From contig JAEUWI010000034.1 in the NCBI GenBank assembly GCA_016791475.1, positions 1 through 64,000 of the forward strand: a DNA stretch of 64,000 nucleotides, read 5' to 3'. The notes beneath the pieces are model-generated. The model was not told the origin of the DNA. It ran no database searches and saw only the letters and a list, made by a program, of their open reading frames with translations. The position numbers and the translations under genes were made by a program. Shown here in pieces: positions 20,588 to 44,577 of the stretch (position 1 is the first letter of the stretch; every line of letters starts with the position of its first letter). Origin of the DNA: Candidatus Hydrogenedentota bacterium (GTDB lineage Bacteria > Hydrogenedentota > Hydrogenedentia > Hydrogenedentales > JAEUWI01).

Positions 20588-20590
20588 AGG

Positions 20591-20809: not shown

Positions 20810-20832
20810 GGGACCAAACTCCTTGATGAACC

Positions 20833-24775: not shown

Positions 24776-24894
24776 GGTAACACGTTATTGGTGTGAAGTC
24801 GTGCCGCCCGTTTAGCGTCGGAGGCGACCTCGTAAACTTCACGTCGCCTTGAATCACTATTGCAAACCATAACATTATGCTTTATGCTTTCTTC

Positions 24895-28172: not shown

Positions 28173-28950
28173 TGATTTCCGAGGCGGTTTTGCGGATGCC
28201 ATCGAGGGAGGCCTCCAGGGTTTCGACGGTACCATTGTAGAGCTGTATATAGTCGCTCGACGCGGTGCTGCATTCTAGTCCGATCGCGCTGGAGACGATG
28301 AAAGCTACCGCTTCGGCTTCCAGTTCGCGGGATTTGCACGTGCCAATCAAGCCGTGATCCGTCCAGTGGAGCAATTCGTGGGCAAGTTCGTGAACCAAGA
28401 CGGAGAATTCCGCTGCGGGGCTCAGCTCCGGACGTATGCGGATTTTGCCACCAGAGGAAGCACCTTCGGCATTGCCCAACTCGTCGGAATACTCCAGCAC
28501 GATGCCCTGGCTTGCGATGAAGGCTTTCAGCCGCTCGGTGTGGTCAAGTGGATCGCCACTGGCTTCCGCAGGGCAGGGGAGGGCCTCGCCGTCGGTCTGG
28601 GAGACATCGAACACATACGCCGCACGGAATCGGATGCGGGGTTGGTCATCCTGTAGCGCGGTGTCACTGGAATCGCGAAAGACCATCGGTGCAATGATGG
28701 TGATGCCCTGCTCGCCCTTCTTTACGAAACGTCCAAGCTTCTTCCACGCCCGGAATCCACTGACCCGCGTCGCACTGGGGAATTGCGACTGAATCAGCAC
28801 GATATTCCGGAAACTGTAGCGATGAAATCGCGCCATCGCCGCGAGATAGGCCACGAGCTGATCGCTCTTGCCGCTTTCAAGATTCTCGACGAGGGATTTC
28901 AGGCCCTGATCGATGAGTTGCTTTACCTGATCTGTTTTCTCCGTGTTCAT
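28144..28950 (-). CDS. ArdC-like protein: ssDNA-binding domain plus zincin metallopeptidase
   Basis: The 268-residue protein has an N-terminal ArdC-type domain (about 10-110; LVAYLAAMARFHRYSFRNIV, FRAWKKLGRFVKKGEQGITI). A metallopeptidase segment follows, with HELAHELLHW supplying an HExxHxxxH zinc site and a downstream Glu-rich helix (SRELEAEAVAFIVS). ArdC proteins are plasmid antirestriction factors that bind single-stranded DNA as it enters a new host. The ATG at 28950 has a strong GGAGG six bases upstream. It lies downstream of hsdR but after a likely terminator (29077-29111). An antirestriction gene beside a restriction operon is expected if the region arrived as a mobile plasmid. Confidence 0.82.
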   Translation of the reverse strand: MNTEKTDQVKQLIDQGLKSLVENLESGKSDQLVAYLAAMARFHRYSFRNIVLIQSQFPSATRVSGFRAWKKLGRFVKKGEQGITIIAPMVFRDSSDTALQDDQPRIRFRAAYVFDVSQTDGEALPCPAEASGDPLDHTERLKAFIASQGIVLEYSDELGNAEGASSGGKIRIRPELSPAAEFSVLVHELAHELLHWTDHGLIGTCKSRELEAEAVAFIVSSAIGLECSTASSDYIQLYNGTVETLEASLDGIRKTASEIITALTPTAE

Positions 28951-29141: not shown

Positions 29142-32100
29142 TCAGGGGTTCGTAATCTGATACACCATGTCGCCGACGAAACGCTTGAAGGATTCGTTCT
29201 CGACAAATTGCTTGTAGAACTGGGTGAAGTCCTTCATGGAGCCTTGCGCCGCTTTGCCCAGGGCCTGATCGTGGGCCAATCTGGCGGTATGCGGTGTGTT
29301 GGCCTTCGCGTTCAGATAGGCCGGATCGGCAGCGACTTTCGGCGCGATGTCGTCCCGAATGTGACGGAAGATTCGGTCCGCATCGGTGAATGACGTCCCG
29401 AATTGCGCATTGAAGCTCTGCAGAATATTGCTCAGCCGATCCAATTCGGGTTCCGATTTTCTGCCCGCCACGTCGGTAGGAATGGGTTCAATCTCCGCAT
29501 CTTCGTCGGCCAGAGCGATCTTCATGGCCACTTTCTTCTCCACGCGATAGCTGTCCATGTCAATGGCTTCGACGATGCCCTTGGCGAGGTCTTCTTCACG
29601 CGGCGCGGGAAGCTTGGGCGTGAGCAGGTCCAGAAAAATGGAGAGTTTCTCCCACGCGGCGTTGCTGTAGGAAATCACCGCCGAGAGGAAGCTGTAGGTG
29701 CGGCAGAAGGCTTTGGCCTTTCCCTTGAACTCCACTTGGCCATCCTCTTCGAGCTGGCTCACATAAACGGCCACACATTGATCGAGGATCGGGTCCAGGG
29801 CATCCCGGTCGGCCCCGTCGAGGAACAGGGCCACCAGTTGATCCACCTGTTCCGGTGCGTACACCTGGGCGGCATCCAGCGCCGTCTTCAGGTCGTGCAG
29901 TTTGTTCGGGTCAGATTCTTCGGACAGCAGCGTGGTGCGGTAATAATCCTGGAAGGCAAAGGTAATCGCCTCGCTGTTATTTTGAAAGTCGAGGACGAAG
30001 CAATCGTGCTTCTGGGGATGGGCGCGGTTGAGGCGGGACAAGGTCTGCACGGCCTTGATACCCGCGAGGGGTTTATCCACGTACATCGTGTGAAGCAGTG
30101 GCTCGTCGTAGCCCGTCTGGAACTTGTCCGCGCAGATGAGGAAACGATACGGATCGCTCTGTATCTTCCCCGCGATGTCCCCACTGGAAAAACCGTTGAG
30201 CGACGCCTCACTCACCTTCGCTCCGCCGTACTCATGCTCCCCCGAGAAGGCGACAATCGCCTGATAGGGGCTCTTCCGTTCAAGCAAGTATGCCTTGAAT
30301 GCGTGATAGTACTGGATGGCCCGCTCAATGCCACTGGTGACCACCATCGCCCGCGCCTGGCCCCCGATTTTCCCGGACGCCAACACCTGCTCGTGAAAGT
30401 GGTCCACCATGATTTCGGATTTGAGTCGAATCGCGTGGTCGTGACTCTCCACGTATCGGCGGAGTTTCTTCTTGGCCTTCTTGGTGTCGAATTCCGGATC
30501 ATCCTCCGTCTTCTTCACCAGCTTGTAATAACTCTCCACGGGCGTATACGACCGGAGCACATCGAGGATGAAGCCCTCTTCAACCGCCTGCTTCATGGTG
30601 TAGCTGTGGAATGGCCGGTGCCTGACCTTGCCTTCGACATCGGGTGCCAGTGCTTCGCCGAACATCTCCAGCGTCTTGTTCTTTGGCGTGGCGGTAAAGG
30701 CGAAGTAACTCGCATTCTTGAGCATCTTCCGCGCCGCCATGCGCTTTTCCAGCGCCGCGTTTACCAGGTCTTCGGGGTCGTTGCCCTCACTATCATCCAG
30801 TTCCTCCCCCAGCGCCTGGCTCATCGCCGCCGTGGTCTTGCCGCCCTGGCTGGAGTGGGCTTCGTCGATGATGATAGCGAAGGTCTTGCCACCCTCTTTG
30901 GCGATCTCATCCAGGATGAAGGGGAATTTCTGGACGGTCGAGACGATAATCTTCTTTCCCTGCTCGATGAACTTTCGCAAGTCGCCCGAGCGCTCCGCGT
31001 GTCCTACCGTCGCGCCGACCTGCATGAACTGCTTGATGGTCGCCTGGATCTGTTGGTCGAGAAGGCGGCGGTCGGTGACCACGATGACCGAATCGAAAAT
31101 CTCCTTGTCGTGGCGCTTCTGACCGATGAGCTGGTGGGCCAGCCAGGCGATAGAGTTGGACTTGCCGCTCCCTGCAGAGTGCTGGATCAGGTAACGTCTG
31201 CCCGCGCCGTGGGCGCGCACGTCGGCCAGTGCCTGGCGCACGACACCGAGCTGGTGATAGCGCGGCCACACCTGCCTGAGCGGTGTCTTACCCGTGCGGG
31301 GGTTTTTCTCCCCCTTCACGATCTGGGCGTAATTCTCCAGAATGTTGGTCAGCCCCGCCGGGGTGAGCACTTCTTTCCAGAGGTAGTCCGTCTTGAGGCC
31401 GTTCGGATTAGGCGGATTTCCCGCGCCGTCGTTGAACCCCTTGTTGAAGGGCAGGAACCAGGAGGCCTTCCCCTTGAGTTCAGTGCACATCCGTACTTCG
31501 CTGTCGTCCACGGCGAAATGCACCGCGCATCGACCAAACTGAAAGAGCCGTTCGCGCGGATCGCGGTCCCGTCTGTACTGGTGCACGGCATCGACCACGG
31601 TCTGCTTCGTCAGGCTATTCTTCAGCTCAAAGGTGGCGATTGGGAGCCCATTGATAAACAAGCCCAGATCCAGCGCCCGGCGCGTCTCGTCCATGCTGTA
31701 GGCCAACTGGCGCGTGATGGAGAAACGATTCTGCCCGTGGAGGGCTTCGGCCTTGGCGTTTCCGAGGGAGGGGGTGCCGTAGAAGAGGGCGAAGTGCAAG
31801 GGGCCGTGCGCCACCCCCTTGCGCAACACGTCGATCACCCCGCGCTTGCCGATCTCGCCGGAGAGCCGCGACAGAAACTTGAGTCGGTTGATGTCCGCAT
31901 GGTCCGTGTAGCTGCCCATCCCCAGCTTCTCGAAAGTCTCCGATTGGGTCGTCTGAAGGAAGGCGAAGAGCTGGGGCACATCCAGCGCATGGGCGCGGTC
32001 AAAGTGCTGCGGACGCCCCACAAGATAGCCCGTGCCGCCGCTGGGTGGGGACTCCTCGGCGGACCAACCCGGGTCCACCGCAAGCCCGTCCGTGCCGGTC

Positions 32101-32153
32101 ATGTGCCGCATGATGAGGCTTTCCAAGCCCTTCTCGGAGATGTCCGTGCTCAC
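29142..32153 (-). CDS. hsdR: Type I restriction enzyme R subunit
   Basis: The 1003-residue protein has an N-terminal nuclease domain with the PD-(D/E)xK-type FELKNS (about 178). The superfamily 2 motor follows: Walker A HSAGSGKSNS (about 329), DEAH box IIDEAHSSQGG (about 431), TATPKNKT, and late motifs (ICADKFQTGYDEP; QTLSRLNRAHP). It cuts unmethylated DNA after ATP-driven translocation, in complex with HsdM and HsdS. The start is GTG at 32153 with GGAGG six bases upstream. A gap of 290 bases separates it from darG, so it may have its own promoter; no gene is seen there. In most systems hsdR lies beside hsdMS; here DarTG and Hachiman-like genes intervene. Confidence 0.95.
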   Translation of the reverse strand: MSTDISEKGLESLIMRHMTGTDGLAVDPGWSAEESPPSGGTGYLVGRPQHFDRAHALDVPQLFAFLQTTQSETFEKLGMGSYTDHADINRLKFLSRLSGEIGKRGVIDVLRKGVAHGPLHFALFYGTPSLGNAKAEALHGQNRFSITRQLAYSMDETRRALDLGLFINGLPIATFELKNSLTKQTVVDAVHQYRRDRDPRERLFQFGRCAVHFAVDDSEVRMCTELKGKASWFLPFNKGFNDGAGNPPNPNGLKTDYLWKEVLTPAGLTNILENYAQIVKGEKNPRTGKTPLRQVWPRYHQLGVVRQALADVRAHGAGRRYLIQHSAGSGKSNSIAWLAHQLIGQKRHDKEIFDSVIVVTDRRLLDQQIQATIKQFMQVGATVGHAERSGDLRKFIEQGKKIIVSTVQKFPFILDEIAKEGGKTFAIIIDEAHSSQGGKTTAAMSQALGEELDDSEGNDPEDLVNAALEKRMAARKMLKNASYFAFTATPKNKTLEMFGEALAPDVEGKVRHRPFHSYTMKQAVEEGFILDVLRSYTPVESYYKLVKKTEDDPEFDTKKAKKKLRRYVESHDHAIRLKSEIMVDHFHEQVLASGKIGGQARAMVVTSGIERAIQYYHAFKAYLLERKSPYQAIVAFSGEHEYGGAKVSEASLNGFSSGDIAGKIQSDPYRFLICADKFQTGYDEPLLHTMYVDKPLAGIKAVQTLSRLNRAHPQKHDCFVLDFQNNSEAITFAFQDYYRTTLLSEESDPNKLHDLKTALDAAQVYAPEQVDQLVALFLDGADRDALDPILDQCVAVYVSQLEEDGQVEFKGKAKAFCRTYSFLSAVISYSNAAWEKLSIFLDLLTPKLPAPREEDLAKGIVEAIDMDSYRVEKKVAMKIALADEDAEIEPIPTDVAGRKSEPELDRLSNILQSFNAQFGTSFTDADRIFRHIRDDIAPKVAADPAYLNAKANTPHTARLAHDQALGKAAQGSMKDFTQFYKQFVENESFKRFVGDMVYQITNP

Positions 32154-32443
32154 TGGTTGCCTCCATCAATTACCAATGCATTTTGTAAGTCATTATGCTG
32201 CAATGGGTTGCGCTATGCTGCTCCGATGGTTTTGCTCTCTCCATCAAGTACCCGACAGCCTTGCCGCAGGTCGTCGCGCGTTGCTCGACGATCCTGTCAA
32301 ACAACCGTCAAGCAATTCGGGGAATCATAATCCTATTCAAATCAACAGGTTGCGGTGCATGTGAGCTGAAACAGCGGCGCGATCACCCGGTGCAATCAAG
32401 CAAACGTATGCTCACCGGTCGCGCATCGCAAGTCCAGAGACGC
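32154..32443. other. Gap between darG and hsdR
   Basis: About 290 bases, less G+C-rich than the flanking genes. A minus-strand promoter for hsdR may lie here, but no clear -10/-35 pair was found. No gene or strong hairpin was seen. Confidence 0.35.
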
Positions 32444-33508
32444 TCACTTTGAGCTCGTTTCGATCGGGTCGTGCTTTATCCAACCCTGCTTGACCAGGGT
32501 ATCCGCAGCGATGCCGATCTGTCGGGGTGTGAACTGCCGCTTGCGGGGACTCCACTCGTAGACTCGCTCAACCACGTCGTCCATGGCAGAGACCCCTTCC
32601 TTCGTCATCACCCAATGGACCGTCGATAGCATTTCCAGGCCAAAAGGCGACTCGAAGCCCTCTGTCAGCGCCGTCACCCGGTCGAAGCGCGCACGGGTAT
32701 CGGGATGCTGGCCGAGAAAGGCCCCGGCATCCTCCACCGCGCCCGGCACCAGAGACAGTTGCTTGTCGGGCGCGTCTCCGCCGTCGTCGTAACCCACCAA
32801 CAGATGTCCCTCGATAGCATGCAACACATGGCGCAGGTTCGCCGCATAGGGCCCGTAGACCGCTTTTTCGTAATTAAGGCGTAAGGGTTCTCCCGCCTCC
32901 TGCATGAAATACATCAACTTGTGGACTTCAAGCAGGGTGACGAAAGGGTCGAGCAGGCCACGAAAGTAGCGGTCTATCAGCTCCACCAGCGCCGCCCGCC
33001 CGGCAGTCATGCGGGGCACCTCGCGGCTGTGGTGCATGGTGTCCGATGCGGGCGCGCCCTTGGGCTCATAGATCCGCACCGTCACGTCGGGCAGCGCGCC
33101 CAGGGCCGCCTCAATGCGTGGCTTCACCTCCACCCATTCCAAGCCGCCCAAACCGCTGCCCAGAGGTGGGAGGGCGATGGAGCGAATCTTCCGTTCCTCT
33201 ATGAACGCTGCAAGGGCCGCTAGACCGTGGTCAATATCTTCCATGCGGCTCTTGCCCCGCCAGTGCCGCTTCGTCGGAAAGTTGATGATATAGCGCGGCG
33301 GCGTGAGCTGGCCCGTCTCGAACACAAACATGCGCCCCGGCTGGACCTCCTTGCGCTTGCATGCTGACGCATAGGCCTTGAAGTTTTCCGGCCACGCGTT
33401 CTTGAACTGCAAGGCAATGCCCCGCCCCATCACGCCCACACAGTTCACGGTGTTGACGAGGGCCTCGGATTCATCGCGCAGCATATCGCCGCTGGTCAGT
33501 TCAATCAT
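32444..33508 (-). CDS. darG: DarG antitoxin: macrodomain DNA ADP-ribosyl glycohydrolase
   Basis: The 354-residue protein has the DarG-type macrodomain at residues 1-155: GDMLRDESEALVNTVNCVG and VMGRGIALQFKNAWPENF form the ADP-ribose pocket, PTKRHWRGKS carries the catalytic Lys, and LPPLGSGLGGLEW completes it. It removes ADP-ribose that DarT attaches to thymidines on single-stranded DNA. The C-terminal half (about 170-354; LLEVHKLMYFMQEAG) is the region that binds and inhibits the toxin in known DarG proteins. The gene begins 16 bases after darT. DarTG is both a toxin-antitoxin pair and an anti-phage system. Confidence 0.92.
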   Translation of the reverse strand: MIELTSGDMLRDESEALVNTVNCVGVMGRGIALQFKNAWPENFKAYASACKRKEVQPGRMFVFETGQLTPPRYIINFPTKRHWRGKSRMEDIDHGLAALAAFIEERKIRSIALPPLGSGLGGLEWVEVKPRIEAALGALPDVTVRIYEPKGAPASDTMHHSREVPRMTAGRAALVELIDRYFRGLLDPFVTLLEVHKLMYFMQEAGEPLRLNYEKAVYGPYAANLRHVLHAIEGHLLVGYDDGGDAPDKQLSLVPGAVEDAGAFLGQHPDTRARFDRVTALTEGFESPFGLEMLSTVHWVMTKEGVSAMDDVVERVYEWSPRKRQFTPRQIGIAADTLVKQGWIKHDPIETSSK

Positions 33509-33524
33509 GGTTGTGCCTCATGGG

Positions 33525-34169
33525 TCAATAATACCAATTATTCCGAATTTCCACCACCGGCCGGTGCCCGTCTTGTGGTAACGTCTTGATGACTCGCTTA
33601 TAAATGACGTCGGAATACACCCCGATGCGCTCCACAAGCGGCCAGGGGAAACGTTGCTCCAGCAGGAACTCGGCCTGTTTGCCTTCCTTGCAACTCTGCC
33701 AATCGGTCGCCTGTACCGCTTTCCAGTCGATTTCCGCCAATTTTCCCAGATCGGCCCGATCCTCGAAGTATCGCGCACCCGCGTTGGACAGGGTGAAGGC
33801 CCATCGCGCACCCCGCTGCGCCGCCCAGTCCACCGTAGCCTGAAGGTCGGCCTCCAAATGGATGATCGGGCCTTGCCCGCCCCGGTAAGACAGCTCCGGG
33901 TGGTTGGCGCGGGCGATAAGATACAGCATAACCGAGCGCGGGCAGAAATAGAAGGGGACACAATCGCCGACATGCAACTCGGGATGGCTGGTCAAGGTCA
34001 GCTCGGTCATCCGCCGTTGTTTAATGTCGCTCATTCCAATCGTCGTTCCAGGGGGATGCCGCCGCGCGATTTCCGCATCGCACCACAGGCACCCATCCGC
34101 CACGATGGACGGTGACCGATCCACATGCACGATGTGATATAGCTTGGGCTGGGCAGGTACGAGACTCAC
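33525..34169 (-). CDS. darT: DarT toxin: DNA ADP-ribosyltransferase
   Basis: The 214-residue protein (DUF4433) shows LYHIVHVDRSPSIVADGCLW and the NAD-site region IGMSDIKQRRMTELTL, then the phage-defence loop YFCPRSVMLYLIARANHPEL. The C-terminal KQAEFLLEQRFPW carries the catalytic Glu. It transfers ADP-ribose to thymidine bases in single-stranded DNA and blocks replication. The start is GTG at 34169, whose GTGA overlaps the hsdS stop, so toxin synthesis is tied to translation of hsdS. Its antitoxin darG follows. Confidence 0.92.
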   Translation of the reverse strand: MSLVPAQPKLYHIVHVDRSPSIVADGCLWCDAEIARRHPPGTTIGMSDIKQRRMTELTLTSHPELHVGDCVPFYFCPRSVMLYLIARANHPELSYRGGQGPIIHLEADLQATVDWAAQRGARWAFTLSNAGARYFEDRADLGKLAEIDWKAVQATDWQSCKEGKQAEFLLEQRFPWPLVERIGVYSDVIYKRVIKTLPQDGHRPVVEIRNNWYY

Positions 34170-35575
34170 ACTTCAGCCTCCTCGTCAGCGGTCTCAAGCG
34201 CGTCGTCCAGCTCAACGTCGTCCTCGGCGAGTTCCGACGTGACTTCCTCGGGCAACTGCGCCGCCGCCGCACGTACATCGAGCTTGCCGGTCACCACGTC
34301 GGCCACGAGGCGGGTGCGGTACTCGCGGAGGAGTTCGATCTCGCGTTCGAGGCGGGAGATGGCGGCGGATAGGGCCCGAGTCTCGTTCTCAACAACTCTC
34401 AACAACTCCGTCTGTTCAGTCTCGGGAGGAATGGCGAGTTTGAAACGTTTCAAATCTTCGCACGTAATCGCCCCTTTTGTACTGCCGGAGTCTTCACTAA
34501 GAGCACGGAGTTGAAGGTAGGCCGCTCTTAGGCTAAGACATATAAACTCGGGCGATGCGACAGGGATTCGCGGAGCTATGAAAGCGATATGCTGGTTGAT
34601 GGTCGCCTCGATGCGGAGGAGTGCAGACATACCGCGAGTTTTTCCTTGGCCAGTAATCGCCACCAATACACTCCCAGCGGGAACTATGGGCAGATGGCAC
34701 TCTCGAAGTGCGGACTTTGTGACGAATTGATCTGCGCTGTCGATCATGTCGCGGTTAACCTGCGAGCTATTCAGCCACGGATATGTTCCGCCATTCCAAT
34801 AGGCGGGTTTGCCGCGAGACGGAGTTGATCCATTACCGACGCGAGCAAAACGACTTATCCGCCAAAGCTCCCAATGCGCGGGAATATCCCCGAGCCAGGG
34901 GATGCCGGAGGGTTTGAGGGGGACGTTGGGGTCGAGGCCTCGGGTGACGGCGCGATGAATGATGGCCTGCTTCTGCTCGTTCAGCAGCGCGATCACCTTG
35001 CGCTTCGCCCGGATCGTCCGCTCCAGCCGCCCGTTCGCCCAGTCCAGGAAACGCACAATCGCCGCCTGCTCCTCGGGGGGAGGGAGGAGCACTGGAATCT
35101 GTCGCATACCAGGAATGGACAAATCCCATTGACCGACCCGTACGCCATCCGACGCCTGACCGAAATGTGCAACGTAGGGCTTGCTGCGAAGCAGCCTTTG
35201 TCCAAATGCGTGATTGGCTATGCGTAGGTCGAAGACAAAGTAGGCCGGGCTGACGATACCGTCGCATGGAGCGATGCCCATTGAGCCTTGCCAAGCCTTC
35301 ATCTTATTGATCACGAGATTGCCAGCGCGGGCCACCTTGTAGTTGCTCAAATCCTCAGGGATGACATTGTGATTCTCTTTTTCATCGGTCATCGAGCGCA
35401 CGAAGACGCCCTTCTCGCGCGCAACCGACAAAAGGGGCAGGTCTGCTCGATTTCGCTCGGTTCGCTTAGAGATAAGTGTGCGGAGATTCTGCACTTCCCA
35501 GGTTGTCGGGACCGTGCCGAGCCACTCTGAACCCGACTCCTTATACTCCGGGTACGGCTTAAGGTCGGCGATCAT
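34166..35575 (-). CDS. hsdS: Type I restriction-modification specificity subunit
   Basis: The 469-residue protein has two target-recognition domains, the first beginning GSEWLGTVPTTWEVQNLRTL and the second GIPWLGDIPAHWELWRISRF. Each is followed by a conserved helical spacer (PPPEEQAAIVRFLDWANGRL and PPETEQTELLRVVENETRAL). Each domain reads half of a bipartite DNA site. An acidic C-terminal tail (ELAEDDVELDDALETADEEA) is unusual. The ATG at 35575 has GGAGGGGG upstream and overlaps the helicase stop (ATGA). hsdS is separated from hsdM by five other genes, so S-subunit synthesis is coupled to the Hachiman-like genes. Confidence 0.93.
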   Translation of the reverse strand: MIADLKPYPEYKESGSEWLGTVPTTWEVQNLRTLISKRTERNRADLPLLSVAREKGVFVRSMTDEKENHNVIPEDLSNYKVARAGNLVINKMKAWQGSMGIAPCDGIVSPAYFVFDLRIANHAFGQRLLRSKPYVAHFGQASDGVRVGQWDLSIPGMRQIPVLLPPPEEQAAIVRFLDWANGRLERTIRAKRKVIALLNEQKQAIIHRAVTRGLDPNVPLKPSGIPWLGDIPAHWELWRISRFARVGNGSTPSRGKPAYWNGGTYPWLNSSQVNRDMIDSADQFVTKSALRECHLPIVPAGSVLVAITGQGKTRGMSALLRIEATINQHIAFIAPRIPVASPEFICLSLRAAYLQLRALSEDSGSTKGAITCEDLKRFKLAIPPETEQTELLRVVENETRALSAAISRLEREIELLREYRTRLVADVVTGKLDVRAAAAQLPEEVTSELAEDDVELDDALETADEEAEV

Positions 35576-38500
35576 GATTCCCCCTCCATGATCGACCAGA
35601 CTCGATGGTAGCTGGCGCCACGCTCGCCCATCGCTATTGTCCACTCATTGGGGTCGGCAGCCCGCAACCGGAGGCGAATCTGGTGGAGCGGCTCTTCCGT
35701 TGTAACTTCAAGGTGTTTAGCCAGGGCTGGCGCCGCAGTCCTTGGAACCCCGAGAAGTCTCAGGGCCACGGCCTCGTCGGAGTTCACGCCGTAGTAGACG
35801 CGCGCTGGTAGATTCCGCAGGCTGCGCTGCTCGTCGGGGGACAATCGTTCGATCTTGCTTCCGAGCGTAAGCGACTGCAATGCGGAAAGTCCCCAGGACG
35901 CCGTCTGCGTGAGCCGTCCGAATACGTTGCGGCAACACTCGGTCATTGCGGCGACGGGGTCGGTGGTGGTCTCGCCGTCCGCCACTTGCTCGTGATGGCT
36001 GAAGTAGTCTGTCGCCATCTCGGTAAGCGCACGCCCCTGTACCCAGTCACAGATGATTCGGGCGAGTTTGTCTCCATCCGGACTCGTACCTCCCGTTACC
36101 GCTTTCAGGGGGTCGCGAAGCTCCGGCACTTGGAGCAACAGCCCCATCATTCGGCGAAGGTCATCTTTGCGGTCCGCGAACAACTTCGGTGACCAGACAT
36201 CGTCCGGAAGATTCTCCTGACCCAGTCGGGCGAGCGTGTTGCTGACCGACTCCCAGGAGAACCCGGTAGCGTCAACCAGACTCAGTGGTTTTCCCTTGAT
36301 TCGTTCGGCATAGGCGTGAACGCCCTGCACCAACGTATCCGCCCATCCTCGGTGGCTTTTGCGCAGTGATTGGAAGCCGAGGGTACCTCGAAGAACCTGT
36401 TCAACTTGCGCTGCGAACTGCTCGTGGTTCCCGATTTGACGGTATGTATGAGCCAGATACTGAACGAACGCCGACCAACCTGGTTGATGAGAGAGCGATT
36501 CCAAGCGCAGCAGCGAGCCAGCTTCCATCGCGGCCCTCACCATGTCGATGAGCGTCGAATTGAGTTCGCCCACAGCCGTATCGATCAAGTGCTCCAACTC
36601 CCGCTGCCTGGCGTCATCTTTGGCCGCCAGGGCAACCACGCCGAGGTCCCCCTGATCAACGCGACCGGCCCGACCGGCGATGTTCCAGAAGTCCTCGGGA
36701 GGCATATCGGTGCGAAACGGGAAGCTCCTAGAAAGGTACTGTTGGCTGGCAAACACGACACCGGACACGGGAAAGTTCACACCCTGAGCGATGGTGGTGG
36801 TCGCCACGAGAATGCCAAGCCGACCGGTTTCCGTGAGCCATTCCACAAGCGCACGCGTGTCCTCGGACATACCCGCATGATGAACCCCGACGCCGTACTC
36901 GAGTAGACCGGTCAGAGGGAAGTCGTGCCCCATCTCGTCGACGAGAAACTTCCGCACATGGTCGAGATCTTCGTCTACCAGCCTTCGCCTGTTCGCCTCG
37001 ACTTTAAATGTGTCAGCAATGCCCCAGGTCGCCCGTGGAGCGTCGGCGAGCACGATGACTGTGCCGCGTTCCTTCAGAACTTGCGCGGTTACAGCCGCAA
37101 TTTTCCCCGGAGATTTCGCCACCTTGGACCAGGCCAATCCCAGAGGGCGCGGCTGGCCGATAACGATCTGCTCCGGGATATCGAGGGTATTGCGAGTCGT
37201 ATGGCGCGTGCGAAGCGATAGAGTGAATGCGCCCTTGCTATCGCCCTTGTCGACACGGGCAATGGCCACAACTCGGTCGTTCGGAGTCCAGTCAACGCCC
37301 AAGTCGATGTTTTTGTTGCTATCTGGCGACAGCCATCGTGCGATCTCCGCCCCGTTACGGATGAAGGGCGTCAGCAGGAGGAACTGCGCATAGCGGCACT
37401 CCCGGTTAATCGTCGCCATGAGCAGCTCAAGCTTGATTCCTCGGTCCGGGGACGCCAACCCGTGAGCCTCGTCCACGACCACGAGCGTAATGGGTCGGCC
37501 AATCTTGTCTTCCCAACCGCCACGCAACATCAAATCCAGCTTCTCCGGCGTGGTTACGAGAATCCGGAACTGCTGTGCTTTGTCGGACTCTGTCAGCATC
37601 CCGGCTTCGAGGCCATCCACTTCGAGTGCCGGGCTCACTTTCTCCACGACCGTCCCGATTTTCGAGAAGTCCTGACGGAGGCGCGTTGTTAACTGGTTCA
37701 CCAGCGCTCGCGTAGGCGCCAGATACGCTACCCAACCGTTCTCCTGGTCGAACTGGTTCAAGGCCTGAAGAATCCGAAACTGTGCGATGAACGTCTTACC
37801 GCTCGAAGTCGGCAAGCTCACCACAACCGCGCGATGGCCAGAGCCGAGAAGGCCCTCCTCACGGAGGGTCCGCCTCTGGGGAGGCAGCATCTCAAAGATT
37901 GGGCGCGATCGATCTCGAGCAGTCAACGTCTCAACGAATCGCGTCACCCGGCTGTTGACTGCGCGGGTGACCGTCCAGATGCTGCTTTCAACCATCGCGC
38001 GTGCAGTTCGAGCGAGTAGGCGCGACAGGTTTTCCTGGTCGATCAGTTGGCCGCGCGCGGATGCGCCAATTGCCCGGTCGAACTGCGCTTCCAGTTGTTC
38101 TCTGATGTCGAAGTGGCCGTCGATGGAGCCCTGCCCCAGGTAGGTGCCCAGGAGCTCGGCGGCTTTCGCGAGATGGTATAGGGCTATCAATTCTAATGCT
38201 GGCCGGACGTCCTTGCTGGCCTCGGCCTCCTGCAGGAACGTGGGTTCAATGTCACGCTGGGCAATGCGGATAGCGACGATACGTGCTTGAACCGCGTCGA
38301 GGTCCGCCCAACCTTGTTTTCGAAGAAGTCGCAGCCATACCTCCAATACCGACGACCACACTCGGACGCCCCAGTCTGGAGCGTCGAGCGGCAGTACCGG
38401 GAACTCTACCTCCGTCACGATGCGTCGAAAATCCGCAGAGCGATCACCAAGGACGGCAAGGCAACCCAAGCGCACCAGCCAATGAGAAGCCGCGACTGGC

Positions 38501-38763
38501 TCCTCCGGCCATTTCAGAGTTCTGGCAATCTGGAACGCTTCAGCAGCTACAGATCGAAGTTCAATCGCCCGGTGCTCGTCATCGAGGCAATCAAAGACCT
38601 GGAGTTCAAGCGCGTTAGCAATGAACAGGAGTTCACTCTCATCCATATCTGGTGGCGATGTGGACCCCAACGCTTGTGTGAGTCTCCGGCGACTCGCTTC
38701 CGTTGTGGTATCTTGAAGGCGGTCCTCGCCAATAGCTGTCCTAAGCCAAGAGCCTGTTGTCAT
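35572..38763 (-). CDS. hamB: Ski2-like DExH helicase, HamB-like (Hachiman)
   Basis: The 1063-residue protein has an alpha-helical N-terminus of about 280 residues. Superfamily 2 motifs follow: Walker A VSLPTSSGKTFIAQ (about 319), motif Ia YLAPTRALVNQL, DEAH box LVVVDEAHGLAS (about 431), and Ski2-type motifs (VGVHHAGM; LVATTTIAQGVNFP; NIAGRAGRVDQG). The Ski2-type layout next to a small PD-(D/E)xK-like partner gene is that of HamB in Hachiman, where the helicase senses DNA and licenses HamA to degrade it. The ATG at 38763 overlaps the hamA stop (ATGA). Other Ski2-like defence helicases cannot be fully excluded. Confidence 0.8.
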   Translation of the reverse strand: MTTGSWLRTAIGEDRLQDTTTEASRRRLTQALGSTSPPDMDESELLFIANALELQVFDCLDDEHRAIELRSVAAEAFQIARTLKWPEEPVAASHWLVRLGCLAVLGDRSADFRRIVTEVEFPVLPLDAPDWGVRVWSSVLEVWLRLLRKQGWADLDAVQARIVAIRIAQRDIEPTFLQEAEASKDVRPALELIALYHLAKAAELLGTYLGQGSIDGHFDIREQLEAQFDRAIGASARGQLIDQENLSRLLARTARAMVESSIWTVTRAVNSRVTRFVETLTARDRSRPIFEMLPPQRRTLREEGLLGSGHRAVVVSLPTSSGKTFIAQFRILQALNQFDQENGWVAYLAPTRALVNQLTTRLRQDFSKIGTVVEKVSPALEVDGLEAGMLTESDKAQQFRILVTTPEKLDLMLRGGWEDKIGRPITLVVVDEAHGLASPDRGIKLELLMATINRECRYAQFLLLTPFIRNGAEIARWLSPDSNKNIDLGVDWTPNDRVVAIARVDKGDSKGAFTLSLRTRHTTRNTLDIPEQIVIGQPRPLGLAWSKVAKSPGKIAAVTAQVLKERGTVIVLADAPRATWGIADTFKVEANRRRLVDEDLDHVRKFLVDEMGHDFPLTGLLEYGVGVHHAGMSEDTRALVEWLTETGRLGILVATTTIAQGVNFPVSGVVFASQQYLSRSFPFRTDMPPEDFWNIAGRAGRVDQGDLGVVALAAKDDARQRELEHLIDTAVGELNSTLIDMVRAAMEAGSLLRLESLSHQPGWSAFVQYLAHTYRQIGNHEQFAAQVEQVLRGTLGFQSLRKSHRGWADTLVQGVHAYAERIKGKPLSLVDATGFSWESVSNTLARLGQENLPDDVWSPKLFADRKDDLRRMMGLLLQVPELRDPLKAVTGGTSPDGDKLARIICDWVQGRALTEMATDYFSHHEQVADGETTTDPVAAMTECCRNVFGRLTQTASWGLSALQSLTLGSKIERLSPDEQRSLRNLPARVYYGVNSDEAVALRLLGVPRTAAPALAKHLEVTTEEPLHQIRLRLRAADPNEWTIAMGERGASYHRVWSIMEGES

Positions 38764-39548
38764 GGTGTACTCCCATGAAGCAAAGTTGGCCAGTCGGCGA
38801 TCGGGACAGGCAAGTACCAAGCGGTGCATTCAATGCGCGTCGGGGCGGTAATTGTCGCTGCAAGCGTTTTCGCGCGCATGCTAACGTCTCGTTCATCAGG
38901 CTCTGTATCGCGAAGCAGAATCCCGACCAAAAGGAACTCCTTGCCGACAGACTGAACGTAGCGCCGAACCGCGGCCTGATAGAGTTCTTGATGCTTTGGA
39001 GCTTCACACCGGGACCGCAGCCACTTCAGCAGTGCGTGCTGAATATCCAAGCGAGTTGCCTCTTCCTCAAGTTGCCACGCCATTCCGCCACTACCATTCA
39101 TTACATTTGGAGGCGTTCTTGCGTCTGAGGAAGTCTTAACCTCACCGAAAAGTAGCAGCACCGATTCGCCTTCTCTGCAGAAACCGACGAGGTCTGCGCC
39201 GGGCAAACTGGCTCTAGGGGTACGTCGATCTCGGACAAGGTTCCACGGCCAGCAGATCTCGCGACTGTCATCGTCTACGAGAACGCACTCTGCGAGAGCC
39301 TCTCCGATTGCCCACGATTTCTCTTCGGGAACTGCGCGCAGGAGCTTCTCGACGAAACCGGTCTCCATCCCTGTAGAGGCCATTCCGCGCAACTCAGCCT
39401 CAAAGCTGGTATCGGCGTCTTCAACACGATCCTTCACTACACTTCGAAGATAGTTGGTGAACTGCTCGACGTCCGATACCTTACGACCGGACCACAATGA
39501 GCCCAAATGGGTTCCCGCATAGCAGGTGCTTGAAGCAAGTGCATTCAT
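38760..39548 (-). CDS. hamA: HamA-like nuclease (DUF1837-type, Hachiman)
   Basis: The 262-residue protein has a nuclease-like core: GEALAECVLVDD (Glu near 84), LPGADLVGFCREG (Asp near 118) and LLLFGEVKTSSDAR (Glu-x-Lys near 134). This fits the PD-(D/E)xK arrangement of HamA, the effector of Hachiman. The order hamA then hamB, with an ATGA overlap, is that of known systems. The ATG at 39548 overlaps the stop of an 85-residue gene upstream. Assignment rests on motifs, size and the helicase partner; a sequence comparison would settle it. Confidence 0.72.
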   Translation of the reverse strand: MNALASSTCYAGTHLGSLWSGRKVSDVEQFTNYLRSVVKDRVEDADTSFEAELRGMASTGMETGFVEKLLRAVPEEKSWAIGEALAECVLVDDDSREICWPWNLVRDRRTPRASLPGADLVGFCREGESVLLLFGEVKTSSDARTPPNVMNGSGGMAWQLEEEATRLDIQHALLKWLRSRCEAPKHQELYQAAVRRYVQSVGKEFLLVGILLRDTEPDERDVSMRAKTLAATITAPTRIECTAWYLPVPIADWPTLLHGSTP

Positions 39549-39802
39549 GGAGATGCCTCACTCCATCCCTTGCTCTCATTCAGCAGGACCTCTGCTATCC
39601 GCTCGATGGCTAGTATGCCCCTGCGGAGTAAGTCAGGCCTGCGTCGAAAGCTGAATTGGTGAATCAGCGCGGTAGCTCTATCCCCGGCAACAATAAAGGA
39701 AGCACTTCCGTGCAGCGTCATCAAGAGCCCTTGCTTGTACCGTTTGCCTGGCAATCCGACCAGCGATGCACTACAGGTTTCCATGGCGAAGTTAACTGTC
39801 AT
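39545..39802 (-). CDS. Small protein of unknown function in the defence operon (85 aa)
   Basis: I do not recognise the family. The 85-residue protein (MTVNFAMETCSASLVGLPGK... SFRRRPDLLRRGILAIERIA) seems to have an N-terminal beta-rich part and a C-terminal helix with an Arg-rich turn. Both ends overlap neighbours by four bases (ATGA at 39799-39802 and 39545-39548). Such overlaps on both sides are strong evidence that it is a real, co-translated gene. It sits directly before hamA, so it may be an accessory factor or regulator. Confidence 0.6.
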   Translation of the reverse strand: MTVNFAMETCSASLVGLPGKRYKQGLLMTLHGSASFIVAGDRATALIHQFSFRRRPDLLRRGILAIERIAEVLLNESKGWSEASP

Positions 39803-40200
39803 ATCTGCCCCTGGTCTTGAGGTATTCCTGCGTGTTCCTCGTTTATGGCGGAGCGCAGGCGCATCTTCAACGCGCGCGCGGCATCGGAGAGATTCTCGTC
39901 GGCCTCCAGGGCATACTCGGACCACAACACGCCGATTTGTTCGTGCAGCTCTGCCTGCAGATCTTCGCGGGTGGGGGCAATCACGTGAATGTGCAACGCG
40001 TCGTCCTTGAGGATCACGTGTTGCCTGGACGCGGTGAGTTCGGGCGTGAGCTTGAGCGGTTCATGGAATAGGAGGCGCTTCTCGCGCCACGGCACTTCTC
40101 TCACGTCGAAATCCGACATAGCCAGCGGCTCAATGCTTTCGACAGCATCGCAGTTTGCCCCGAGGACCCTTAAGTCCAGCTTTTCCAACTTGTCTGACAT
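39799..40200 (-). CDS. Small protein of unknown function in the defence operon (133 aa)
   Basis: The 133-residue protein is acidic (MSDKLEKLDLRVLGANCDAV; LWSEYALEADENLSDAARAL). It has a central beta segment (REKRLLFHEPLKL, HVILKDDALHIHVIAPT) followed by two helices. I know no family for it. The ATG at 40200 has GGGAAGAG upstream, and its stop overlaps the next gene (ATGA). It is the first gene of the chain of overlapping genes that runs through hamA, hamB and hsdS to darT. Confidence 0.65.
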   Translation of the reverse strand: MSDKLEKLDLRVLGANCDAVESIEPLAMSDFDVREVPWREKRLLFHEPLKLTPELTASRQHVILKDDALHIHVIAPTREDLQAELHEQIGVLWSEYALEADENLSDAARALKMRLRSAINEEHAGIPQDQGQI

Positions 40201-40490
40201 GTCTCTTCCCTGTAGCCGGGTGCGATGACCTGGCACCTTGCACGCTTGTCATGGTACTACAGCGCTATTCGGCAATTCGCCTGAGACGGGCACAGCCTGC
40301 GCGTCGCCTGTCGCACATTCGGTGGGCTCAAAAAGGGCGGTTGCTCCCCCCGATCCAGGGGTCGCTCCCCCCGATCCGAGGGCCGCTCCTCCCGATCCAG
40401 GGGTCGCTCCCCCCGATCCAGGGGTTGCTCCACCCGATCCGAGGGCCGCTCCTCCCGATAATCGTTATGTCGAACTGGGGCCGGATCACC
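40201..40490. other. Gap between hsdM and the hamA-side gene chain
   Basis: About 290 bases that hold the five-copy 21-base tandem repeat (listed separately). The remainder shows no gene. If the chain starting at 40200 has its own minus-strand promoter it must lie between 40201 and 40350, but none is clear. Confidence 0.4.
40352..40456. repeat. Five tandem copies of a 21-base repeat
   Basis: Units start with GATCC at 40352, 40373, 40394, 40415 and 40436, each close to GATCCAGGGGTCGCTCCCCC plus one base. A sixth start is broken at 40457. Two subtypes (CAGGGGTCGC and CGAGGGCCGC) alternate. Each unit can form a small hairpin (GGGG...CCCC). The array lies between hsdM and the next gene and could vary in copy number. 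No coding role is supported. Confidence 0.75.
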
Positions 40491-42791
40491 CTAGCGTACC
40501 CCCTTCAGCAGGCCATCCAGCAGGCCTTCGGCCTCCTTCTCGATGGCGAGGATGTCGGCGCTGATTTCTTCCAGCGTCCGCAGCGGTTGCGGCTTGTAGA
40601 AGTGGCGGGTGAAGCTGATTTCATAGCCGATTTTGGTGGCGCTTTCTTTGATCCAGGCGTCGGGGGTGTAGGGCAGGACCTCGCGGCGGATGAAGGCCTC
40701 GATGCCGCCTTCCTCCAGGAGCGGGACCTGCTCGGTGTCGCGTAGATCGGAATCGGGCTCATACTCTACGATGGCGCTCTTGCCGTCCACGGTGGCTTCG
40801 ACGAGTCCGCGCAAGGGGTCGGCCTTGATTTTGCCCGGCTTATGGACCTTGGCGATGACGGGCGGTGCGGACTCCTCGCGCCAGCTCACGGCCTTGAAGA
40901 TTTGCTTGAGATCCGCAGCGCCGAGCTTTATCCCCCCGTCTTTCAGGGCGGCGTTCACCCGGTCGCGGAAAACATTGTGGTCCTCAAAGGGCTGATCGCC
41001 CAGGGCGGCCCGGAGTTTCGTGGCGGCTTCGACCAGGCGGCCGTCGCGCTCCCAGGTCTTCGGGTCGAGGAGCTTCTTTTTCTTCTTCTCGGGCAGGCCC
41101 TTTTTCGTCGAGCCGCCTTCTTCGTCGTCACCTTCTTCCTCGTCGCTGCCCCAATCGGCCAGTCGGGCCTCGACCTGGGTGGCGACTTTCGGGAAATTCT
41201 CGAACAGAAGGTCACCGAATTCCTCGTTGAGCACGGTGCGGATGTCCTCGTCGCCGGAAGTGAAGCGGAGCGTCTCGATGGCCTTGAGGGAGAACTGGCT
41301 GTGCAGGCGCAAGGGACGCTCGACGGTGACTTTCCAGTAGCCAAAGGCGGCGTTGGGGAATAGCTTCGATTCGGGTGTCTCTTTGAATTCAAGGAAGGTG
41401 CGGTTGATCCGTTCGATATCCTCGGGGGAAAGTTCGCAGTTTTTCTTGCCGAGGTTTTTCCGAAGCGGTTTGAACCATTGGGTGGCATCAATGAGCTGGA
41501 CCTGGCCCTTGCGGTGGGTGGCCTTCCGGTTGGAAAGCACCCAGATGTAGGTGGCGATGCCGGTGTTGTAGAAGAGATTGAGGGGGAGGGCGACAATGGC
41601 TTCGAGCCAGTCGTTTTCGATGATCCACCGGCGAATGTTGCTCTCGCCTTGGCCCGCATCCCCCGTGAAGAGGGAGGAACCGTTGTGTACTTCGGCGATG
41701 CGGCTGCCCAGGGCGGACTTGCCGTTCATCTTCGAGGCCATGTTGGCCAGGAAGAGCATTTGGCCATCGCTGGAGCGGGTGACGAGGGAAAGCTCCTCGC
41801 CGTTGTGCATGACCTTGAAGCGCGGATCGCGCATCCCTTCCTTGCCGCCCATGGCCTCCAGATCTTTCTTCCAGCTCTTGCCGTAGGGCGGATTGGCGAG
41901 CATGAAATCGAACTCTTGCGCGGGGAAGGCATCGTGCGACAGGGTGGACCATTCGGCACCACCGACGATGTGGTCGGCGCTCTCGCCTTCGCCCTTGAGC
42001 AGCATGTCCGCCTTGCAGACGGCGTAGGTCTCGGGGTTGATCTCCTGGCCGTAGGGCAGGCACTTGACCTGTTGACCTCGCTTCGCAGCGATGGCCACGA
42101 GCGTCTCCTCCGCAACCGTGAGCATGCCGCCGGTGCCACAGGCGCAGTCGTAGAGGAGGTAGGTGCCGGACTTGATCTCGTCCTCGATGGGCAAAAAGAT
42201 GAGATTGGCCATGAGGCGTACTGCGTCGCGCGGGGTCCAGTGCTGACCCGCCTCTTCGTTGTTGTCCTCGTTGAACTTTCGAACCAACTCCTCGAAGACG
42301 GTGCCCATGGCGTGGTTGTCGATACCAGCGGGGGAGAGGTCGATGTCGGGATCGAGGAACTTGTTGATCAGCGTGCCGATGGCGTCGGCCCGAGAGAGGG
42401 TCTGGAGCTGGTTGCGGAATTTGAAGTTTTCCAGGATGTCCTGGACGTTCGACGAGAAGCCGTTGAGGTAGTCTTCGAAGTCGGCCAGGAGCTGTTGCTG
42501 GCTGCCCCGCGACTTAAGATCACGCAGGGTGAACTTCGATGTATTGTAGAAGGCCTGGCCGGCAGCATCGCAGAGGGCGGCGCGCTGCTCCGTAATCTGC
42601 GCGTCGTCGAGCATCTTCTTCGTCTCAAGCACCTGCGGCTTGGTCGGTTCGAGCACGGCGTCCATACGTCGGATGACGCACATGGGCAGGATGACATCCG
42701 GATATTTCCCACGCTTGAACAAATCGCGCAGGACATCGTCGGCGATGCCCCAAATGAAGGAGACGATCTTGTTGTGTGTGGCTTGATCCAT
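40491..42791 (-). CDS. hsdM: Type I restriction-modification DNA methyltransferase subunit
   Basis: The 766-residue protein has an N-terminal helical domain (NKIVSFIWGIADDVLRDLFK) and the adenine N6-methyltransferase core: DCACGTGGMLTVAEE (S-adenosylmethionine loop, about 219), GQEINPETYAVCKADM, and the catalytic ANPPYGKSW (about 300). A long C-terminal extension contains a charged Lys/Glu-rich segment (DEEGGSTKKGLPEKKKKK) and a region ending ADILAIEKEAEGLL. At 766 residues it is longer than typical HsdM (about 500). It protects host DNA and forms the restriction complex with HsdS and HsdR. The ATG at 42791 is preceded by GGAG; the start is moderately certain. Confidence 0.94.
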   Translation of the reverse strand: MDQATHNKIVSFIWGIADDVLRDLFKRGKYPDVILPMCVIRRMDAVLEPTKPQVLETKKMLDDAQITEQRAALCDAAGQAFYNTSKFTLRDLKSRGSQQQLLADFEDYLNGFSSNVQDILENFKFRNQLQTLSRADAIGTLINKFLDPDIDLSPAGIDNHAMGTVFEELVRKFNEDNNEEAGQHWTPRDAVRLMANLIFLPIEDEIKSGTYLLYDCACGTGGMLTVAEETLVAIAAKRGQQVKCLPYGQEINPETYAVCKADMLLKGEGESADHIVGGAEWSTLSHDAFPAQEFDFMLANPPYGKSWKKDLEAMGGKEGMRDPRFKVMHNGEELSLVTRSSDGQMLFLANMASKMNGKSALGSRIAEVHNGSSLFTGDAGQGESNIRRWIIENDWLEAIVALPLNLFYNTGIATYIWVLSNRKATHRKGQVQLIDATQWFKPLRKNLGKKNCELSPEDIERINRTFLEFKETPESKLFPNAAFGYWKVTVERPLRLHSQFSLKAIETLRFTSGDEDIRTVLNEEFGDLLFENFPKVATQVEARLADWGSDEEEGDDEEGGSTKKGLPEKKKKKLLDPKTWERDGRLVEAATKLRAALGDQPFEDHNVFRDRVNAALKDGGIKLGAADLKQIFKAVSWREESAPPVIAKVHKPGKIKADPLRGLVEATVDGKSAIVEYEPDSDLRDTEQVPLLEEGGIEAFIRREVLPYTPDAWIKESATKIGYEISFTRHFYKPQPLRTLEEISADILAIEKEAEGLLDGLLKGVR

Positions 42792-43551: not shown

Positions 43552-44577
43552 TTATGCGGCGAGGGCCAGAAGGCCCGCCGCTTTGGTGTCCAATTCGATG
43601 CGGTCGCCGGCATTGGGCAGCTTGCCCGCCATGCGGGTGAGGGCGTCCACCAGCGCGAAGATGGTGAAGCAGCCCTGGGCTTTGGCTATCTCCGTCGCCT
43701 CGTGGGCGAGGTTCCGGGGGATGCCATTCTTCGTCAGGGCCTTGAGCACCTCCTCGGCATCCGCGCCGAGGCGTTCGTGCATGGCCTTGCGGATCACTTT
43801 GGCAAAGCCGTCGCGCCGTTCGTCCCGCTTCCACACGAGGTGCTCGATGATCCGCCGGATCTCATCCAGCGACTCATGCACCCGCGCTGTGTGGTTGCGC
43901 GTGAACTCCACGACCTCCACCGCGTCCCAGACGATGTGATTTCGGCAAATCGCCTGAAACCAGAAGGTCTGCACGCCCACGGAGCGCTTGCCCACCTCCG
44001 AGTTCCACAGGAAAAAGCCGGGAGCAAAAGGCTCGCCGTCGATCTCCGTCCAACCCGTCGGATCAATCAGAAAGCAGAACATATCCTGCTCCCCGCAATA
44101 GAGCCCCGTCGCGCCCGTGATGGCCGCCTGGGGTGGCGCGAAATCACCCGCCACGTCCAGCACCGCACCGAGCAAATCGGCGTTGTGCAAGCGGGTGTAC
44201 GTCGCGCCATGGATGGAGCGGATTCCGTCCGCCATGGTCATGGCCTGAATGGGCCGTGATCCGCCGGGGAGCGTCTCCCGCAGCACGTTGGCCGCCGTTT
44301 CCGGCCGGAGCTTATTCACCGTGTCCTTGCTGACCTTCGCCAGTGCGCACACCTGGCTGAAGCTCCAGTCGTTCAGGCGGTAGACGCCATCCTCGCCGAG
44401 GCGCAGGTTGAGCGCATCGCCCTCCACCTCTGGACGGATCCCGGAAGGCGGATTCCACTTTTCCTCCGACCATCGCTTCTGCCCCTCGCAGTGGCTTACA
44501 AGCGCCGCCAGCGTGGGGTATTGTTCATCCGGCGAACGCCGGTAGAGCTCATTATGAGCCCGCGTCAAATGGGCCAT
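43552..44577 (-). CDS. DUF932-family plasmid/phage protein
   Basis: The 341-residue protein has the DUF932 pattern: an N-terminal segment on planting or target sites (WNPPSGIRPEVEGDALNLRL), then YRLNDWSFSQVCALAKVSKD, IRSIHGATYTRLHNADLLGA, and the late conserved FWFQAICRNHIVWDAVEVVE, in which Asn-His-Ile-Val-Trp is typical. DUF932 proteins are widespread on plasmids, phages and conjugative elements; their biochemical role is unknown. AAGGAG lies upstream of the ATG at 44577. It supports the view that the flanking defence genes are plasmid-derived. Confidence 0.8.
   Translation of the reverse strand: MAHLTRAHNELYRRSPDEQYPTLAALVSHCEGQKRWSEEKWNPPSGIRPEVEGDALNLRLGEDGVYRLNDWSFSQVCALAKVSKDTVNKLRPETAANVLRETLPGGSRPIQAMTMADGIRSIHGATYTRLHNADLLGAVLDVAGDFAPPQAAITGATGLYCGEQDMFCFLIDPTGWTEIDGEPFAPGFFLWNSEVGKRSVGVQTFWFQAICRNHIVWDAVEVVEFTRNHTARVHESLDEIRRIIEHLVWKRDERRDGFAKVIRKAMHERLGADAEEVLKALTKNGIPRNLAHEATEIAKAQGCFTIFALVDALTRMAGKLPNAGDRIELDTKAAGLLALAA

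Follow-up and report, generated by a model that had tools for sequence, protein, structure and literature searches.

A type I restriction-modification operon in a Hydrogenedentota bacterium as a probable two-slot carrier of exchangeable defence cassettes

Two defence systems sit between the genes of a third in the window analysed here, which is the whole stretch of 64,000 nucleotides (nt) from contig 34 (JAEUWI010000034.1, positions 1 to 64,000) of a 7.7-Mb, 529-contig genome of a Candidatus Hydrogenedentota bacterium (GCA_016791475.1). On the minus strand, from 42.8 to 29.1 kb, the genes run hsdM, orf1, orf2, M23A, M23B, hsdS, darT, darG and hsdR (Table 1), so that a Hachiman-like nuclease and helicase pair (M23AB) and the toxin and antitoxin pair DarTG are embedded in a type I restriction-modification (RM) operon. 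Our reading is that this operon is probably a two-slot carrier of exchangeable defence cassettes that work independently, and M23AB and DarTG seem to have come together in the window by chance and not to form a single machine. The initial annotation of this DNA had given the same gene order, which is correct, and had described the Hachiman-like pair and DarTG as lying within the RM operon in one gene run, which is also the case, with overlaps of the same kind recurring elsewhere. It had further proposed a joint system, and this part was not supported.

Contents of the two slots

The hsdM-hsdS interval is referred to here as slot A and the hsdS-hsdR interval as slot B. Backbone relatives were found with the window hsdM as query, and 32 loci were collected. 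In the window's own phylum, represented in the collection by 68 genomes of a single order, matches were chosen by identity, and 5 of the 68 have a window-type hsdM with at least 70% identity across the matched part; three genomes with hsdM at 44-46% were excluded, and the loci at 50% from another phylum (L136-L138) were included. Matches in the phyla of L024 and L085 were chosen by E-value, which gave relatives in 11 of 398 genomes (50-77%) and 15 of 299 genomes (63-77%), respectively. One plasmid record was read out of 92.

In 28 of the 32 loci, some of them cut by contig ends, hsdM, hsdS and hsdR were all matched. Slot A is filled in 17 of these 28 and slot B in 13 (two of which hold DarTG remnants), and both slots are empty in 8. 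On the hsdM tree the content of slot A changes at least 14 times and that of slot B at least 11 times. Cargos of slot A include M23AB, DUF1016/PDC-S02, AbiD, GmrSD-like, SIR2-HerA, Ppl, TPR, HepT-like and Hypoth_Ymh-like proteins, and those of slot B include DarTG, PD-Lambda-2, dCTPase, SLFN_AlbA_2, RhuM-type proteins (one with a Fic domain) and Helicase-DUF2290.

M23AB occupies slot A in 4 of the 28 loci and open DarTG occupies slot B in 4 (the window, L132, L133 and L134), and the two are found together only in the window. Elsewhere M23AB is partnered in slot B by an SLFN/AlbA_2 gene or by nothing, and DarTG is partnered in slot A by a GmrSD-like or a TPR protein. The HsdM and HsdR proteins of G040 and G011 are 77-81% identical to those of the window, and the contents of both slots are wholly different. 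Seven close backbones come from the phylum of L085 (Moorella), and in these slot A is occupied by SIR2-HerA, M23AB, Ppl or a Hypoth_Ymh-like gene; that of L085 itself (the cultured Moorella thermoacetica DSM 21394) holds three cargos (GmrSD-like, M23AB and Ppl-like) and is labelled M23AB in our counts. A joint M23AB-DarTG system was rejected as the main explanation on the strength of this single co-occurrence in 28 related operons, and darG also lies outside the chain of overlapping genes. The exact gene order of the window, whose uniqueness the initial annotation had named as damaging to its proposal, has no second occurrence in the genomes searched, but each half recurs.

DarTG has decayed in two loci. 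L131 (6587-7542) keeps 53 N-terminal darT codons beside part of darG, and slot B of L135 keeps 29 C-terminal darT codons beside part of darG. Since most of darT has been lost in both and hsdM, hsdS and hsdR are still open, the RM operon needs no darT. An empty-slot backbone was also seen on an Escherichia coli plasmid (L172:12476-23373); an IS3 element and an mcr-10 gene lie a few kb away, and a WYL-domain gene and a DUF262 gene stand upstream of hsdM.

These counts bear on a back-up logic of the kind known from PrrC, in which the RM complex, or the co-translation of HsdS, would restrain M23AB and/or DarTG, which would then fire when RM is blocked or removed. PrrC, embedded in EcoPrrI, is described as being activated when T4 Stp inhibits EcoPrrI (PMC12707154), and a whole Vibrio cholerae cluster is reported to have protected 10- to 100-fold better than tgvAB alone against several phages (PMC11411939). 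The recurrence of a 4-nt overlap between hsdS and darT in L132, L133 and L134, as in the window, would also fit. However, cargos swap independently on the same backbone, with M23AB and DarTG paired in a single operon, M23AB lacks type I genes in view in 24 of 43 loci, and DarG, the known brake on DarT, is present. An island of enteropathogenic E. coli (EPEC), RptR-RMS-DarTG2-M48, is described as protecting as a whole (PMC12255303). PrrC shows that a guardian is possible in principle, but layered, independent cargos are favoured, and the PrrC-like guardian is kept as a rival that we regard as quite unlikely.

Gene borders, overlaps and putative recombination joints

The window genes hsdM, hsdS and hsdR, all with open frames, are predicted to encode a type I RM system, and they form one operon as judged from gene order. 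They are recognised by PADLOC and Pfam (Table 1); the NCBIfam models give 93.7 bits for hsdM and 201 bits for hsdR, under their cut-offs of 242.75 and 284.55. The adjacent darT and darG both score over NCBIfam equivalog cut-offs and constitute a DarTG pair of predicted activity. DarT also matches PF14487 in Pfam, solved DarT and DarG chains in the PDB match too, and the DarT structure 7omv matches the window protein at E 8e-32. A sigma-70 scan of positions 32000-43400 gave 0 sites against 3.1 expected by chance, a result that is uninformative on real promoters.

All five 4-nt overlaps listed in the initial annotation were read directly in the sequence and were present on re-testing. The overlapping chain extends from orf1 to darT only, and hsdM, darG and hsdR lie outside it: the TAG stop of hsdM lies 290 nt ahead of orf1 across a gap that holds a 21-bp tandem repeat, the ATG of darG lies 16 nt past darT, and hsdR starts 290 nt past darG. 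By themselves the overlaps are weak evidence, because 78 of 288 near-neighbour co-directional pairs of open reading frames (ORFs) without M23 or hsd genes, taken from the collected M23 loci, can overlap by 4 nt. Compared with this background, overlaps at 5 of the 8 window junctions give p = 0.04, with kinship left out of account.

More is learnt from the borders of slot A across loci. Its outer borders are 4-nt overlaps in 24 of the 30 tested (12 of 16 between hsdM and cargo, 12 of 14 between cargo and hsdS), and both ends overlap in 9 of 14. In a thinned set the count is 17 of 23, which differs from the background above with a one-sided binomial p of 4e-6, kinship being ignored. This set was picked by hand and retains M23AB three times, AbiD twice and GmrSD-like cargo twice on the hsdM side. 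Left out of the border test were the slot borders of L085, L114 and L115, the downstream border of L160 and most of L138.

Second hsdM 3′ ends are present between tandem slot-A cargos in 3 of the 32 loci, namely L085 (two), L160 and L114. They measure 111-156 bp and are 84-89% identical to their own copy. Each is preceded by a piece of the hsdS start, detected by BLAST in L085 and L160 and by eye only in L114, where it measures about 11 nt. The joint of L160 and the second joint of L085 are alike and probably stem from one event. The PD-Lambda-2 cargo of L012 is preceded by a 63-bp copy of the hsdR start (about 8605-8667, minus strand, 98.4%) that is, judging from its sequence, an insertion scar. 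The simplest reading of such joints would be that cargos are stacked and exchanged by recombination at the ends of hsd genes. As a separate observation, the hsdR leader of L012 and L024 contains repeats of AGCAAAGG about 12 bp apart, despite different slot-B cargo.

Several points weigh against this picture of regular, exchangeable slots. The window itself yielded neither a joint nor a duplication, and the gap with the repeat sets its orf1-orf2 insert apart from hsdM. Where slot A is empty, hsdM and hsdS overlap through ATGA or GTGA in 5 of 10 loci (L129, L130, L165, L166 and L169). Slot B is less regular, with 4-nt overlaps at 5 of 11 hsdS/cargo and 4 of 11 cargo/hsdR junctions. In the wider M23 set, direct junctions between M23 and hsd genes overlap by 4 nt in just 11 of 23 cases, and no type I gene on the same strand is in view in 24 of the 43 M23 loci with 5 kb or more on each side, so that embedding is common and not obligatory. 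The term backbone is itself loose, as hsdM identity ranges from 50% to 84% over the matched part in the 32 loci. The contents of the slots were assigned manually, in several cases only from similarity to a relative that had been scanned, and for some cargos no family was matched.

The loci might instead reflect ordinary defence-island clustering, in which genes settle at any place close to one another, and the overlaps the compactness of operons. The frequency of 4-nt overlaps among unrelated neighbours, the modest p value of the window and the 11 of 23 direct junctions all fit this explanation. It accounts less well for cargo lying repeatedly at the same two backbone points in genomes of three phyla, for most slot-A boundaries falling at hsd stop or start codons, and for the duplicated hsdM ends, and we consider it unlikely.

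Table 1. Coordinates of the operon, its overlaps and borders, and of related loci (positions are those of the window unless a locus is named)
Feature	Position	Strand	Evidence or remark
hsdM, type I methyltransferase, backbone	40491..42791	-	PADLOC MTase_I 855 bits; Pfam HsdM_N + N6_Mtase; start by eye
21-bp tandem repeat between hsdM and orf1	40339..40459		5.8 copies
orf1, 133 aa	39799..40200	-	opens the overlapping chain
orf2, 85 aa	39545..39802	-	
M23A, HamA-like PD-(D/E)xK nuclease, slot A cargo	38760..39548	-	PDC-M23A E 3e-90
M23B, HamB-like Ski2-type helicase, slot A cargo	35572..38763	-	PDC-M23B 1349 bits; HamB 173 bits
hsdS, specificity subunit, backbone	34166..35575	-	PADLOC Specificity_I E 2e-101; Pfam Methylase_S
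darT, DNA ADP-ribosyltransferase toxin, slot B cargo	33525..34169	-	NCBIfam NF048013 239 bits (cut-off 150)
darG, macro-domain antitoxin, slot B cargo	32444..33508	-	NCBIfam NF048014 476 bits (cut-off 250)
hsdR, restriction subunit, backbone	29142..32153	-	PADLOC REase_I E 1.5e-42; Pfam HSDR_N + SWI2_SNF2
orf1/orf2 overlap	39802-39799	-	ATGA
orf2/M23A overlap	39548-39545	-	ATGA
M23A/M23B overlap	38763-38760	-	ATGA
M23B/hsdS overlap	35575-35572	-	ATGA
hsdS/darT overlap	34169-34166	-	GTGA
ArdC-like gene, left border of exchangeable defence site	28144..28950	-	Pfam ArdcN; start by eye
DUF932-like gene, right border of site	43552..44577	-	17 bits, under Pfam cut-off 23
orf1-like protein	L153:150-1232		
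orf1-like protein	L154:4954-6045		
orf1-like protein	L155:6445-7470		
orf1-like protein	L156:2-796 and 10101-10373		cut by record end
Hma system of sister genome	L193:510-15789		HmaA, GajB-like helicase, dCTPase, HmaB, HmaC

The Hachiman-like pair M23A and M23B

The pair named hamAB in the initial annotation is labelled by PADLOC as the candidate PDC-M23A and PDC-M23B (scores in Table 1), and HamB profiles reach M23B with 173 bits only. No HamA profile matches the window M23A at E ≤ 0.1 (PADLOC and Pfam) or at E ≤ 1 (Pfam). PF08878 (HamA, formerly DUF1837) matches 3 of 46 M23A proteins weakly (best E 0.0071), that of the window not among them; it has no match in the window's own genome, and the control genomes are likewise without one. 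Against the PDB, a profile made from 46 M23A rows finds HamA at E 0.015-0.02. For M23B, sequence comparison by itself gives other Ski2-like helicases higher scores than HamB.

Structural models point to a closer kinship. The M23A model, built on the 46 M23A sequences, has a mean confidence (pLDDT) of 90.5 and aligns to HamA 8vx9_A with Z 16.8, a root-mean-square deviation of 4.1 and 238 aligned residues (VIA), the best non-Hachiman row being FokI at Z 6.9. In a Foldseek search of this model, HamA (E 1.9e-5) is the sole match under 0.001. Of the D-E(X)K residues, D119 and K138 are invariant and E136 is nearly invariant among the 46 proteins, and from the motif these would be the catalytic residues. 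HamB aligns to residues 1-1063 of the M23B model (pLDDT 87.2; 937-962 residues aligned, Z 24.2-26.6), and three HamB chains rank first in Foldseek. In Z value HamB is tied with Hel308 and Brr2. Because rows within 1 Z count as tied, coverage of the N-terminus was used for M23B instead of Z order: in the 50 rows shown, the alignments of the non-Hachiman structures (Hel308, Brr2, ASCC3 and Pol theta) start no earlier than residue 252.

By modelled fold and active-site residues, M23A and M23B are a Hachiman-like pair, with M23B matching HamB over its full length. The names hamA and hamB were thus apt as regards the HamA fold, the active-site residues, the HamB profile and the full-length HamB fold, but not the HamA profile, and it is because this profile test fails for the window M23A that M23 is not filed as Hachiman. 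As described for Hachiman HamAB (PMC12278908; PDB 8vx9, 8vxa and 8vxy), two genes encode a nuclease followed by a Ski2-like helicase, the former modelled with the HamA fold and a D...ExK motif and the latter aligning with HamB along its full length. The two differ in that identity is only 10-18% in the structure alignments, PADLOC files M23 separately as PDC-M23, and M23 is often embedded in type I RM.

Two peptide patterns were used to scan genome_contigs for M23 loci, and of the 115 relatives that they gave the best 80 were kept, so that the sample is weighted towards close relatives. Viral contigs gave one further locus, L104, and the weak L105 was left out. In the 85 loci examined, which include two RM-only loci (L012 and L013), the commonest gene clusters near M23B besides M23A are hsdS (33 of 85), hsdR (27) and hsdM (19). 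Same-strand type I genes are found on both sides in 20 of 83 M23 loci, upstream only in 11 and not in view in 52; for the 43 loci with at least 5 kb on each side, the window included, the figures are 16, 3 and 24. The 4-nt overlap between M23A and M23B is present in 67 of 78 loci. On the M23B tree, a FastTree run with long-branch warnings, RM context changes at least 12 times (84 rows, 56 labelled), and the position between hsdM and hsdS appears in two separately supported clades, the window with L024 and L085 with L160.

One locus of an Opitutales metagenome-assembled genome (L100:319-5837) contains darT, darG, an M23B-like helicase and a second macro-domain gene, with no M23A match in the locus, and here the HamB-like helicase is apparently paired with DarTG in place of its nuclease. 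No second case of this pairing was found in 387 genomes of the phylum of G077. That search gave seven matches, of which one is the genome of L100 itself and another, G077 (L096), has M23A; the remaining five all have an M23A match (weak in L184, E 6e-9), and none has a DarT or DarG match.

Flanking site, proposed mechanism and relation to known systems

The flanks of the window at 25.9-29.1 kb (85%) and 43.2-44.8 kb (81%) are found on one contig in the same-genus genome G035, which has a 92% identical ArdC-like gene in the syntenic stretch. Synteny is local, because matches further out go to other places and contigs. Between these flanks G035 has an Hma system that includes a GajB-like helicase and a dCTPase, where the window has its RM operon, and the whole operon accordingly appears to be exchangeable in its turn, as cargo of a site that would lie between ardC and the DUF932-like gene. 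Further left of ardC, at 17889-25878, lie a ParA-like gene, an AbiEii toxin gene and a Fic-MerR gene.

This comparison also bears on whether the arrangement is an assembly chimera or contamination. The genome is in 529 contigs with a contamination estimate of 3.66%, and the exact gene order was found nowhere else. Against a chimera, both near flanks are on one contig in G035, close hsdM (78-84%) occurs in G006, G040 and G011 of the same phylum, M23AB lies in the same slot in L024 and L160 and DarTG in L132-L134, and base composition is even (0.57-0.61 G+C) from 28 to 44 kb. We hold this explanation to be highly improbable.

The two small genes that open the chain are matched by no Pfam, NCBIfam or PADLOC model at E ≤ 0.1, the longer ORF 39545-39925 having been scanned for orf2. 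They were considered as fixed parts of M23 and rejected as such, neither being matched by any ORF in other M23 loci; orf1 was also not found in 10 genomes of M23 carriers, an empty result that by itself shows nothing. Plasmids gave one match to orf1 and none to orf2. Relatives of orf1 occur in 4 of 292 genomes of the phylum of G075, where it resembles the C-terminal part of proteins of about 350 aa (Table 1); that of L153 has no Pfam match. A small gene follows the orf1-like gene in L154 and L156, and 21-bp tandem repeats precede both orf1 and the orf1-like gene of L154 (L154:4703-4801), with differing unit sequences.

In the mechanism that we propose, a slot-A cargo that starts with ATG or GTG at the hsdM stop and ends with ATGA at the hsdS start would stay in the relay of translation from hsdM to hsdS, with ribosomes probably coupled across the junctions and HsdS made after they have traversed the cargo. 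Cargo placed exactly at this junction would inherit the relay and would therefore be co-expressed without breaking the supply of HsdS. The window may retain the relay on the M23B-hsdS side, the hsdM side being broken by orf1-orf2 and the 290-nt gap, and the gap of equal length before hsdR would fit separate expression of HsdR. This can be compared with EcoKI, in which hsdM and hsdS are described as overlapping by 1 nt and translationally coupled, and with classical E. coli type I systems, whose hsdR is usually under its own promoter (PMC3510504). Cargo would move by recombination between hsd gene ends, and each would defend by its own mechanism, layered rather than jointly triggered: RM would cut unmodified DNA, DarT would ADP-ribosylate DNA unless DarG counteracts it, and M23AB, by analogy with published HamAB, may degrade DNA once the helicase meets damaged DNA. 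The toxic parts of type I RM and of DarTG are usually counteracted by their own methyltransferase or antitoxin (PMC12255303).

Embedding in type I RM, including DarTG between hsdS and hsdR, is already known. In the EPEC island DarTG has the same position, which its authors describe as a potential recombination hotspot, and the island is reported to protect E. coli from several phages; it is described as preceded by the RptR repressor and followed by a gene for an M48 peptidase, and has no Hachiman-like pair in slot A (PMC12255303). TgvAB of the V. cholerae VPI-2 type I RM is likewise an embedded two-gene defence, which protects without the restriction activity of HsdR, but it is a GmrSD-like type IV system and a single cargo (PMC11411939). 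The PrrC toxin of EcoPrrI is also encoded inside a type I RM locus; it senses RM inhibition, whereas the window DarT has its own antitoxin (PMC12707154). The candidates named HEC and PDC follow the same embedding principle, as described under guilt by embedding (PMC12988326; PMC11411939), and PDC-M23 presumably belongs to this series, judging by its name. A literature search found no mention of PDC-M23, and none of the titles or abstracts listed dealt with hybrid hsd joints. The Hachiman kinship of PDC-M23, two-slot exchange on a single backbone with ATGA borders and the hybrid joints were not found in print, the preprint of Payne et al. (2024) lying outside the search.

A broader possibility, which we hold tentatively, is that type I RM operons of this family serve as platforms for cassettes, in which defence genes are stored at junctions, coupling is kept by ATGA and exchange proceeds via homology arms. 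These arms would be the hsdM 3′ end and the hsdS (or hsdR) 5′ end, and hybrid hsdS-hsdM joints would be the residue of exchange. If true, such operons would form a store of antiviral systems that resembles an integron but has no integrase. With a backbone that offers two fixed slots, close copies differing in content and fossil joints, the entry and retention of cargo become testable by sequence survey and simple reporter experiments. The candidate PDC-M23 gains a likely mechanism as a Hachiman-like nuclease and helicase guarding genome integrity, and the two-slot backbone predicts that uncharacterised genes in its slots would be antiviral.

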